Shown: piece by piece, positions 5,961 to 41,476 of the stretch
Layout: each line of letters opens with the position of its first letter
How positions within the stretch are numbered: the stretch's first letter is position 1
Assembly (NCBI RefSeq): GCF_004123675.1
Contig: NZ_CP035417.1
Coordinates: 1,107,501 to 1,171,500, forward strand
Reading direction: 5' to 3'
DNA length: 64,000 nt
Source of the DNA: Leisingera sp. NJS204
GTDB lineage: Bacteria; Pseudomonadota; Alphaproteobacteria; Rhodobacterales; Rhodobacteraceae
Notes under the pieces: generated by a model
Told to the model about the DNA's origin: nothing
Database searches by the model: none
Seen by the model: the letters and a program-made list of their open reading frames with translations, nothing else
Program-made: the position numbers and the translations under genes

Positions 5961-6023
5961 TGGACGTGTCGCGGTTTGATGCCGCTCCTTTGATAGCATT
6001 TATTGCAGCAAAGGAGACGAACT

Positions 6024-6299
6024 ATGGGACTGAAACGGACAGAAGAATTCCGGGCCGATGCGGTGCGGATTGCGCTGACGAGCGGGCTGAGCAGGAAGCA
6101 AGTGGCCTCTGATTTGGGTGTTGGCCTTTCGACCCTGAACAAGTGGATCACAGCGCATCGCGACACCGAGGTGGTATCCGACAAAGACCTCGACCTTGCC
6201 CGAGAGAATGAACGGCTTCGACGGGAGAACCGCATTCTCAAGGAGGAGAGGGAGATCTTAAAAAAGGCAACGCAGTTCTTCGCGGGCCAAAAGCCATGA
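6024..6299 (+). CDS. IS3-family OrfA (helix-turn-helix, leucine zipper)
   Basis: A 91-residue OrfA starting MGLKRTEEFRADAVR, after the ribosome-binding site AAAGGAGA. It has the IS3-type helix-turn-helix (SRKQVASDLGVGLSTLNKW) and a C-terminal heptad coiled coil (LARENERLRRENRILKEER). It looks intact. Its stop overlaps the orfB start in ATGA, and a CAAAAG slippery string lies just upstream, so OrfAB could arise by -1 frameshifting as in other IS3 elements. Confidence 0.88.
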   Translation: MGLKRTEEFRADAVRIALTSGLSRKQVASDLGVGLSTLNKWITAHRDTEVVSDKDLDLARENERLRRENRILKEEREILKKATQFFAGQKP

Positions 6300-6607
6300 G
6301 GTTCAGGTTCATCGAAGAACACACTGATACCTTCAGCGCCAAGCGGATGTGCAATGTGCTGGATGTCAGTGAGCGCGGTCTACGGGCCTATCGCAGCCGC
6401 CCGGCCAGTCAAAGGCAGCGCACTGACATGGTCGTTCTGGCGCATATCAAGGAACAATCTCGCCTCAGCCTGGGCAGTTATGGCCGCCCACGGATGACCG
6501 AGGAACTGAAGGAGTTGGGCCTGAACATTGGCCATCGTCGCGTCGGGCGTTTGATGCGTGAGAATGGCATCCGTGTCGAACGATCTAAGAAATACAAGGT
6601 GACGACC

Positions 6608-6648
6608 ATTGCCCGGCAGACGATTGCGAAGCAATCAGCCGAGAGGGG
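6608..6648 (-). repeat. 41-bp hairpin intervening element, antisense copy, in IS3 orfB
   Basis: On the complement this reads CCCCTCTC, then a hairpin GATTGC-TTC-GCAATC, then CTGCCGGGCAAT. It shares the start and end of the two sense copies at 6982-7020 and 27181-27217 but has a different first stem. Deleting exactly these 41 bases joins ACC to GAC, restores the orfB frame and gives VTTDSNH, the sequence expected for this transposase family. Edges are uncertain by about two bases because the flanks contain GG. Confidence 0.65.
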
Positions 6649-6981
6649 GACAGCAACCACGCCTTCAACATCGCACCCAATCTGCTGAACCGGGATTTCT
6701 GCGCAGATGCGCCCAATCAGAAATGGGCAGGTGACATAAGTTACGTGTGGACGCGCGAGGGCTGGCTCTACCTGGCGGTGATCCTTGATCTGCATTCCCG
6801 GCGGGTGATCGGTTGGGCCATCAGCAATCGGATGAAGCGGGACTTGGCGATCCGGGCGCTGAACATGGCTATAGCCTTCAGATCACCGCCTATGGGCTGC
6901 ATTCATCATACGGATCGTGGATCGCAATACTGTTCTCATGACTATCAGATAATCCTGCGACAACACGGGTTCAGCGTGTCC

Positions 6982-7020
6982 CCCTCTCATGCATGTAAAC
7001 ATGCACTGCCGGGGCAGTGG
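6982..7020 (+). repeat. 39-bp double-hairpin intervening element in IS3 orfB
   Basis: It begins CCCTCTCA, then hairpin TGCATG-TAAA-CATGCA, then hairpin CACTGC-CGGG-GCAGTG, and ends GG directly before the ATG of MSGKG. It adds 13 codons in frame between the second catalytic Asp and the Glu of the transposase, where the family has VSMSGKGN with no insert. It matches the copy at 27181-27217 in order, spacing and loops, with paired changes in the stems. Confidence 0.75.
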
Positions 7021-7271
7021 ATGAGCGGCAAGGGAAATTGCTACGACAACTCGGCGGTCGAAACGTTCTTCAAAACGATCAAGGCAGAGCTGATCTGGCG
7101 AAGGTCGTGGCCAACGCGTAGGGCCGTTGAACTGGCCATCTTCAACTACATCAATGGCTTCTACAATCCGCGACGGCGGCACTCAGCATTGGGCTGGAAA
7201 AGCCCCGTCGCATTCGAACGGAAAGTGGCCTAAACGAGCACTTGGAGCGGCACGAAAACGGGACACGTCCA

Positions 7272-7788
7272 GTTCTTGGAAGCCGACTTTAGTGCCGCCT
7301 GCGGCGAACTTGCGGCATGAGCCCCATTTTTCCGGATTCTGCGCTTTGCACGAACGTCCGGTATATGACGAGCATTCTATGCAAAGGCGTTGAGCTGACT
7401 TAAAAGGCTGGTTCAGCCTGGACCATCTAAAGGTATTATTGGGGCTTTAGTTTGAGGGCAGCTGTCGATTGCCCCACAGTGTATCCAATCCTCAAGGGCA
7501 TTTCATGCCCGGCCAGTTTTGGAATGTCCCAAATGACCAGCAGTGCAAACAATACTGTAAGTTGCCACAGGTTTGCACAGGCGAAACCGCGTCAATCAGA
7601 GTTTTTCTTCAAGGCTTTGCCGAGAAAGCCCCTTGAGGCGTCTATTTTGATTTCAGCCGCTGGTTAGCTGCAACCGAAGCAGGGGTAAGTCACAGAGTTC
7701 TTTTTCCGAACTTGTTGTTGTGACCATTCTGATGGGGAAGACCGGTAGGGCAGCAGCCCGCGCCGGAGTGTCAGAAGAGGGTTTGGAA
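7272..7788. other. 517 bases without a recognisable gene
   Basis: This lies between the right end of the IS3-family element and the monooxygenase gene. A 71-codon open frame at 7452-7667 has no ribosome-binding site, no recognisable motif and atypical composition (Ser/Cys-scattered), so I leave it unannotated. The stretch is less GC-rich than its neighbours and probably includes remnants lost with the IS insertion, plus the promoter of the next operon. Confidence 0.5.
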
Positions 7789-26195: not shown

Positions 26196-26275
26196 TGAGC
26201 TGCCCCCTGAATTTCGGACACTGACGTAAGCTATGATTTGTTGTCTGCTGGTCTTCGACGAAGAGGAGATCAGAG

Positions 26276-26569
26276 ATGTCGAAACGGAAGAACCACTCGC
26301 CCGAGTTCAAGGCGAAAGCCGCGCTTGAGGCTTTGAAGGGTGAGCGAACTGCGGCTGAGCTTGCCAGCCAATTCGGCGTCCATCCCACGATGATCCACAG
26401 CTGGAAACGCGCTCTGCTGGAAGGCGCGTCCGGCGTGTTTGAACACGGCGGAAAGAAGTCCCCAGAGATCGACGAGGAGCAGGTCAAAGAACTGCACGCG
26501 AAGATCGGGGAGCTGGCTGTCGCCAACGATTTTTTGTCACGAAAGCTCAAGCCGTGGACCGGCAAGTGA
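26276..26569 (+). CDS. IS3-family OrfA (element B)
   Basis: A 97-residue OrfA, MSKRKNHSPEFKAKAALEAL..., with a helix-turn-helix (TAAELASQFGVHPTMIHSWK) and a C-terminal zipper-like segment (EEQVKELHAKIGELAVANDFL). It is intact, with an AGGAGAT-type site upstream. orfB overlaps it in the -1 frame. Confidence 0.88.
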   Translation: MSKRKNHSPEFKAKAALEALKGERTAAELASQFGVHPTMIHSWKRALLEGASGVFEHGGKKSPEIDEEQVKELHAKIGELAVANDFLSRKLKPWTGK

Positions 26570-27466
26570 GGCGCAAGATGGTTGAGCCTGCCAATACCAA
26601 CCTGTCGATTGGCAAACAGTGCAAGCTGCTGTCGATCTCGCGGTCGTCGTTTTACTGCACGCCCAAGGGCGAGACGGCGATGAACCTGATGTTGATGCGC
26701 CGGCTCGAGGAACAGTTCCTGGAAACGCCGTTCTTTGGTGTCCGCCAGAAGACTTGGCACCTCCGAAACGACGGGCACCTTGTGAACGAGAAGCGCATCC
26801 GACGCTTGATGCGGCTGATGGGCTTGATGCCGATCTATCAGAAACCAAACACCAGCAAAGCAGCGAAAGGGCACAAGACCTATCCCTATCTGTTGCGTGG
26901 TCTACGCCTGGAGCGTCCCAATCAGGTGTGGTGTGCCGACATCACGTATCTGCCAATGCGCAGGGGCTTTCTGTATCTGGCGGCGATCATGGATTGGCAC
27001 ACCCGAAAGGTGCTGGCCTGGCGCCTTTCGAACACGCTGGAAGCAGACTTCTGCGTCGAGGCACTGAACGAGGCCATCGCCAGGTTTGGCCCGCCGGAAA
27101 TCATGAATACGGATCAGGGCAGCCAGTTCACATCTTTTGCCTGGACGAGCAGATTGCGCCGATCCGGCGTGCGGATCTCCCCTCTCGCGCATGCACACAT
27201 GCGCTGCCGGGCAGCGGATGGATGGCAAGGGGCGCTTCCTCGATAACATCTTCGTCGAGCGGCTCTGGCGGTCGTTGAAATACGAATGCGTCTGCCTGCA
27301 CGCCTGGGAGACCGGATCAGAGGCGAAGGCGGGCGTTGGGAAATGGATCGATTTCTACAACCGGAAACGCCCACACTCCGCCCTTGGCGGCAAACCCCCA
27401 GCCGTGGTCTTTTGGCTGAGAAAAGAAGAAACCCAAACCGATCAGCAGGAGCAGAGAGTAGCTTAA
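26554..27466 (+). pseudogene. IS3-family OrfB (DDE transposase) interrupted by one hairpin intervening sequence
   Basis: The first segment (to 27180) runs from RRKMVEPANTNLSIGKQCKL through the first Asp (WCADITYLP) and the second Asp (MNTDQGSQFTS) to GVRIS. A 37-bp insert (27181-27217) shifts the frame and leads to a stop at 27244-27246. Downstream the native frame resumes exactly with MDGKGRFLDNIFVERLWRSL, containing the catalytic Glu, and runs to the stop at 27466. Removing the 37 bases yields the uninterrupted family sequence RISMDGKGR. Confidence 0.87.
27181..27217 (+). repeat. 37-bp double-hairpin intervening element in IS3 orfB
   Basis: CCTCTC, then hairpin GCGCATG-CACA-CATGCGC, then hairpin CGCTGC-CGG-GCAGCG, ending G directly before the ATG of MDGKG. 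It sits at the same position relative to the DDE residues as the 39-bp copy at 6982-7020. Stem bases differ from that copy in compensating pairs (T-A to C-G, A-T to G-C). Confidence 0.75.
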
Positions 27467-27505
27467 CCTACGTCAAAACCTGTCCAAACATTGGGGAGTA
27501 GCTCA

Positions 27506-40938: not shown

Positions 40939-41149
40939 CGGGGCTGCGGTATGGTTCAGGACAGTTTGCAGCCACGATGTTGCAGCTGCGGCCGATGGGT
41001 GCCCCATCCCTGGAGCAGCTTGTGCTGGAAATTTCCATCTGGCCGTGGCTTGGGAAACCGTCCTCCATAGGCTGCCTGCTGTGCCCGGTTCGCAGAATTT
41101 CTGCTGCAAAGTAACTTTTTCTTGCCGCAGCGAAAGGGATGGGCTACCC
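40939..41149. other. Intergenic, no gene seen
   Basis: Contains the end of the DeoR transcription unit and the probable promoter for the cobalamin-riboswitch transcript. Open frames on the reverse strand here are antisense shadows of the DeoR gene. Confidence 0.5.
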
Positions 41150-41332
41150 GCGCTTTACCGGTCCCGAAAGGGCTAAGAGGGAATCCGCGGTGCCTGCCGG
41201 CGCCAAACGGAACTGCCCCCGCAACTGTAGGCGGCGAGAGCTGTGCCATGACGTCACTGGGCCAAAACGGTCCGGGAAGACGGCGCAGTCATTGACCCGC
41301 CAGTCAGGAGACCTGCCGGTGAAAACCGAAAG
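41150..41332 (+). promoter_or_regulatory. Cobalamin riboswitch
   Basis: The conserved core elements appear in order: AAGAGGGAATCCGCGGTG, AACTGCCCCCGCAACTGTA, GTCACTGGGCC, CCGGGAAGACGGCGC, and the B12-box region CAGTCAGGAGACCTGCC. This is the classic AdoCbl riboswitch layout. It lies about 145 bases upstream of a B12-type ABC transporter; the intervening GC-rich stretch is probably the expression platform. Edges are approximate. Confidence 0.93.
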
Positions 41333-41476
41333 ACACCGGGCGGGGTTGTCCGGGGAGGTTGCCGGTAAGATGCGCCGCCGTTTTCCGGTGCCGCAAGCGG
41401 GGGGCAGACCCTCAGCCTTACCGGTCAATGCCCTTTCACCCGTTCTCCGGTCATTGACACATGGAGATCGAATATC

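Follow-up and report, generated by a model that had tools for sequence, protein, structure and literature searches.

The stretch of DNA analysed, here called the window, comprises 64,000 nucleotides of the Leisingera genome and contains two IS3-family elements. The orfB genes of both are interrupted by short inserts that form two adjacent hairpins (Table 1). The first-pass annotation had reported the same kind of insert in the two elements, and both are present. The family is far larger than was first seen. Within the first IS a third member, of 41 bp, is inserted in the reverse orientation. All three are built on one shared plan (CCCTCTC / variable hairpin / CTGCCGGGCAG / YG), and the pattern CCTCTCN{10,30}CTGCCGG occurs three times in the window against an expectation of 0.08.

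Table 1. Coordinates of the insertion sequences, their hairpin inserts and the riboswitch within the window
Feature	Position	Strand	Description
IS3-family element no. 1 (orfA/orfB)	5961-7271	+	8 full genomic copies among those listed, all with both inserts
41-bp double-hairpin insert in IS3 no. 1	6608-6648	-	antisense to orfB, frameshift, at ACGACC|GACAGC
39-bp double-hairpin insert in IS3 no. 1	6981-7019	+	sense, at GTGTC|GATGAGCGG, orfB motif ..S^MSGKGN..
IS3-family element no. 2	26196-27505	+	7 full-length genomic copies listed, plus partial ones of 1093 bp and 420 bp
37-bp double-hairpin insert in IS3 no. 2	27180-27216	+	sense, frameshift in orfB, at ATCTC|GATGGATGG, motif ..IS^MDGKG..
Cobalamin riboswitch	41142-41334	+	

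The exact limits of the inserts come from comparison with insert-free relatives, and clean insert-free sites are known for all three. The 39-bp insert, first placed at 6982-7020, is real, but its limits had been set one base off. Its site is empty in L209, L281 and L282, and L280 holds a 38-bp version. The 41-bp insert is common to L209 and L280, and its site is empty in L281, L282, L283, L285 and L286. For the 37-bp insert the exact empty site is found in Leisingera thetidis (L461) and Leisingera sp. M527 (L462). One 80% relative of the first IS3 element lacks the sense insert only. Such cleanly joined relatives speak against the possibility, raised in the first-pass annotation, that the inserts are ancestral parts of these two IS subgroups. 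The locus L280, situated in the orfB gene of an IS3 element from genome G009, also carries an insert of a third type, GTTCCTCGGGCAAATGATCCCCCGGATCATTTGCGGAATCCTCG, next to its two family members.

Across the family the element starts with 5′-CCCTCTC, continues through a variable stem 1 and the invariant hairpin CTGCCGGGCAG, and terminates with YG-3′, with a total length of 37-45 nt. The ends of the inserts vary by 1-2 bases: copies start with two to four C's and differ in one 3′ G. In many copies there is a bulge of one base, often A, after three stem-1 pairs. The dominant lengths are 37, 38, 40, 41 and 43, and there is no modulo-3 bias over the range 37-45. Terminal inverted repeats are absent; the ends are CCCTCTC and GCAGYG, and the inverted pairs are those of the internal hairpins. 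Stem 1 lies directly before stem 2 in all 30 of the loci fetched with the stem-2 pattern, among which neither a longer parent or autonomous element nor the two separated halves of one was seen.

The pairing of stem 1 is well supported by covariation. Over 30 distinct 41-mers 96.7% of the cells are paired, two-sided changes occur in seven of the eight pairs (50 cells), and the covariation score was reached by none of 500 shuffles. Stem 1 drifts in sequence but retains its fold. Stem 2 (CTGC/GCAG) provides no information on covariation because it is invariant apart from its outer pair; the base pair just outside the stem tends to covary (A..T in 33 cases, G..C in 11), yet C..T is found in 48. 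This second stem looks to be recognised by its sequence. The earlier proposals that both stems covary, and that the fold rather than the sequence is selected, are thus borne out for stem 1 but not for stem 2.

Searching Rfam with positions 6400-7300 (E up to 10) returned no match except a chance match, and the same search over the whole 64-kb window gave the cobalamin riboswitch alone. Nothing matching the family was found in open-access papers or in Rfam, in agreement with the first-pass annotation. The genomes of marine roseobacters hold a large, undescribed family of double-hairpin DNA elements of ∼40 bases.

The host genome contains 65 matches to the search pattern compared with two for the reversed pattern, a few of the 65 being chance or terminator-like matches. 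The element is present in 29 of 101 genomes of relatives, all 29 in the same family. A scan of 84,980 genomes with a pattern that favours a perfect stem 2 found at least 120 stretches, and among the matches listed nearly all are from Rhodobacterales. In 106 plasmid records the element occupies 241 places, and true copies are few in the viral collection, where they lie in IMG/VR contigs. Copy counts per genome refer to the best candidates scored in each search. Hundreds of copies exist across the Rhodobacteraceae, so that the inserts are far from being peculiar to one genome, a doubt left by the first-pass annotation. Among the matches listed two family members (L087 and L129) are from the gammaproteobacterium Vreelandella neptunia; L087 is located inside an IS3 gene and was probably carried over with its IS.

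Two kinds of match were set apart from the family. Those of the CGGCGG-AAA-GCCG type (for example L019, L028 and L033) are intergenic and terminator-like. They and many matches in relatives have the form CCCTCTCGGCGGCAAAGCCGCCTGCCGGGCAGCGGG..TATTTTT and mimic the element, and this likeness may not be due to chance. The matches in Synechococcus FrhB (L133, L178, L182 and L188) are chance coding matches. A second family of small-hairpin inserts occurs in the same transposase genes (L025, L052, L073, L085, L092 and L476-L479, the last being IS3 copies of G019). Its plan is CGCCATTG-N-CTCGGACCAATGGCG-N-AATGGCTC, and some copies have TCTCTCGG in the loop, recalling the CCTCTC tail.

The genes that carry the element belong to IS3, IS5, IS21, IS66, IS256, IS481 and IS91-like elements and to a tyrosine recombinase. 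Most insertions for which the frame could be called lie inside transposase or integrase reading frames; the transposase share is a lower bound, the frame not being callable in many of the sampled loci. In a Pfam tally of 66 sampled loci all domains are of transposase, integrase or HTH type except for families of two unrelated proteins, one of them FrhB of Synechococcus, matched by chance, and the other a weak match. Within the host genome itself L010 lies just past an IS3 gene, and the target of L018 was not assigned. The targeting of transposases that had been proposed is therefore a strong bias, but it is not one towards IS3 alone, since many IS types and the tyrosine recombinase are entered, in both orientations.

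Insertion takes place at C|GATG or C|GACA; the C is conserved at 72%, the G at 88% (a value partly forced by the scan pattern) and the A at 66%. No target duplication is present in alignments of filled and empty sites. The framed loci include all phases and both strands (about 60:40), and even a single site can hold lengths that differ modulo 3, the window having 39 bp where L280 has 38 bp. Frames were called by homology with near-identical loci excluded, in place of codon-usage scoring of the flanks and a first blastp call, both of which were noisy; the homology calls are themselves imperfect and misread IS427-like genes that have a programmed frameshift. In the Sulfitobacter plasmid loci L463 and L464 the elements form part of the open frames of annotated IS3 transposases, which shows that they are at times translated by annotation pipelines.

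The clearest view of how sites become filled is provided by the catalytic codon of IS5 (LLI^DSTGIK), where the empty target is CTGATC|GACAGCACCGG and the insert is 41 bp. In the first sample 11 loci are filled at this position, with at least seven different stems. Filled and empty copies are interleaved in a tree of 42 IS5 copies from 18 genomes, and the closest filled/empty pair, 98% identical, reads CTGAT[C+41 nt]GAC against CTGATAGAC. An identical 41-mer occupies the identical position in 41 pairs of IS copies that are only 60-90% identical (in G000, G003, G006 and G013). G005 has a different class of 41-mer at the IS5 site, and its elements are decaying. IS5 copies are all filled in some genomes, among them G000, G005 and G006, and all empty in others such as G001, G007, G015 and G017; the filled state clusters by genome with P = 0.003, by a statistic that ignores phylogeny. 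L391 and L422 share the same 41-mer and their flanks differ at -5, -9, -13 and +12, so that no co-conversion tract is visible. In the first IS3 element the window copy is closer to the empty L281 (dS 0.65) than to the filled L280 (dS 1.6), although its inserts match those of L280 at both positions.

Comparison of these sequences shows what is in all likelihood repeated gain at C|GATG or C|GACA in conserved transposase motifs, in either orientation and without target duplication, and this would be the simplest account of the distribution of filled and empty sites. Simple random transposition leaves the occurrence of one variant per site (one in G000, G003, G006 and G013, another in G005) unexplained. 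The association of variant with site is a hint that empty copies acquire the element from filled ones in a templated homing step. It is conceivable, although we regard it as doubtful, that homing takes place with neither a known endonuclease nor an intron. Each member of a diverged transposase family in the cell would then receive a site-specific copy of a 41-nt hairpin in its catalytic codon, and the hairpin would be either among the smallest of homing parasites or the tool of a host system that silences transposases at their active sites.

Interrupted IS copies have nevertheless multiplied. Five of the eight full copies of the first IS3 element are identical, and no insert-free full copy of either IS3 element was found among the copies listed in the host genome. 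Near-identical insert-bearing copies recur in G002, G005, G019 and G033. Polymorphisms common to at least two amplified copies comprise 19 nonsynonymous and 4 synonymous changes, compared with a neutral expectation of 74% nonsynonymous; under an omega of 0.1 the P value is 1e-9. As a rough contrast, insert-free IS91-like copies have fewer nonsynonymous than synonymous changes, these controls being more diverged than the copies tested. The few changes suggest that insert-bearing copies multiplied without constraint on their own protein. Because the shared changes are neutral, mobilisation in trans looks to be the better account of these copies than a rescue through splicing or bypass. The helper transposase would then either be gone from the genome now or be a diverged relative.

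The best reading is that of a tiny non-autonomous hairpin element of the REP/MITE kind. In its full form it proposes mobile DNA elements of 37-45 nt with two adjacent hairpins and an invariant single-stranded CCCTCTC tail, which are gained via an enzyme acting in trans and spread with trans-mobilised IS, and we judge this somewhat likelier to be true than false. The enzyme would recognise the folded single strand, hairpin 2 and the tail by sequence and hairpin 1 by shape, and would insert it at the short target. Insertion would break the transposase frame and render the IS non-autonomous. The interrupted IS could persist and multiply if moved in trans by a related intact transposase, and would take the element with it to new replicons and hosts. 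The filled IS5 copies L422 and L424, whose reading frames are otherwise intact, count against this explanation.

The mobilising enzyme was sought among Y1 and Y2/IS91-like candidates and none was found. A HUH nuclease (of IS200/IS605, RAYT/REP or IS91 type) would be expected to act on hairpin ends beside a short target (CATC when read on the complementary strand), to leave no duplication and to excise almost seamlessly. The element has two subterminal hairpins, with the invariant one adjoining the target GATG, target duplication is absent, and the counts of Y2/IS91-like genes (Y2_Tnp) loosely track those of the element and are high in the richest genomes. Against this, G002 (42 copies), G006 and G019 are rich in the element and have no match to PF01797, which led to rejection of a Y1 transposase as the mover. 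The GTAG or CGTC tag is absent, no ends matching those of the element were found at IS91-like loci, and no Y1 or Y2 gene was seen flanked by such ends. A mover of this class is consequently thought unlikely.

The insertions could also be read as the work of the cell, which would silence its resident transposase genes by placing hairpins within their catalytic motifs, the single variant per site or lineage reflecting a templated process. The strong bias towards catalytic motifs, the filling of every IS5 copy in some genomes and of none in others, the single variant per site and genome and the lack of co-conversion are all consistent with such an anti-transposon system. It has little probability in our judgement, as insert-bearing IS multiplied after insertion (identical inserts in eight copies) and the elements also occur antisense and near the ends of IS.

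The inserts had been termed intervening sequences, with the implication of removal from the mRNA. Short hairpin inserts in coding sequence are known in the mitochondrial byp elements, which are mobile in yeast mitochondria, and in the bypassed region of T4 gene 60; bypass is orientation-specific and the protein is kept. If the present inserts were removed from the RNA like an intron or bypassed by the ribosome, the transposase would still be made. This could account for IS with one to three frame-breaking inserts at four to eight near-identical copies in several genomes where no insert-free copy was seen, for the intact joined frames of some, and for an omega of about 0.05 among IS3 relatives sharing inserts. 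That omega comes mostly from empty lineages, however, as the empty L281 is a closer relative of the window IS than the filled L280. Moreover the elements occur in both orientations, their lengths differ at one site and by values that vary modulo 3, the changes among amplified copies are neutral, and there is no Rfam match to a ribozyme or intron. The term is not supported, and removal or bypass is very improbable.

That the inserts are old parts of the IS lineages, kept by constraint on sequence and precisely lost many times, seems scarcely credible: the element is identical across IS copies of 10-40% divergence, and the empty pair L449/L450 has a base difference precisely at the junction, resembling an excision scar, but unrelated stems occupy the same site in other genomes, the elements of G005 are decaying, the empty genes are intact and annotated in relatives, and many precise losses would be needed.

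Should the reading as a trans-mobilised hairpin element hold, mobile elements close to the minimum size would be present as a class of their own throughout a bacterial family, with active sites encoded by other mobile elements as their targets. This would account for many roseobacter transposase genes that have no full-length gene annotation, and would provide a test case from nature for the movement and site finding of very short hairpins. The filled/empty pairs in culturable strains allow direct experiments.

The element resembles MITEs in being non-autonomous, multi-copy and dispersed, and differs from them in having neither terminal inverted repeats nor target-site duplication. The rickettsial palindromic elements (RPE) suggested at first as the nearest analogue are repeats of 105-146 bp in protein genes, inserted in frame in conserved host proteins (PMC2229807); the comparison fails on size and on frame keeping, the present element being about 40 nt, frame-breaking and found in the genes of mobile elements. 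RUP, the repeat unit of pneumococcus, is nearer in target preference. It is a small non-autonomous MITE that has been reported from more than six IS families and inactivates transposase genes, with a length of 107 bp, terminal inverted repeats, a TA target and IS630-Spn1 as its proposed helper (PMC2229807). The idea of small repeats in the transposase genes of several IS families is thus already known from RUP. Here, by contrast, the length is 37-45 nt, there are no inverted ends or duplication, the target is C|GATG, identical sites are used recurrently and no helper was found. REP sequences are high-copy hairpins of 20-40 nt, probably moved in trans by the transposase of another element (RAYT), and are mostly intergenic with a GTAG or CGTC tag and, for GTAG, a nearby Y1 transposase (PMC2817692, PMC3733652). 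The present family instead has a CCCTCTC / GAGAGGG tail with neither tag in its consensus, lies inside transposase genes and lacks association with Y1. What separates it from RUP, REP and RPE is its size, its ends, its target, the absence of duplication and the repeated use of catalytic codons.
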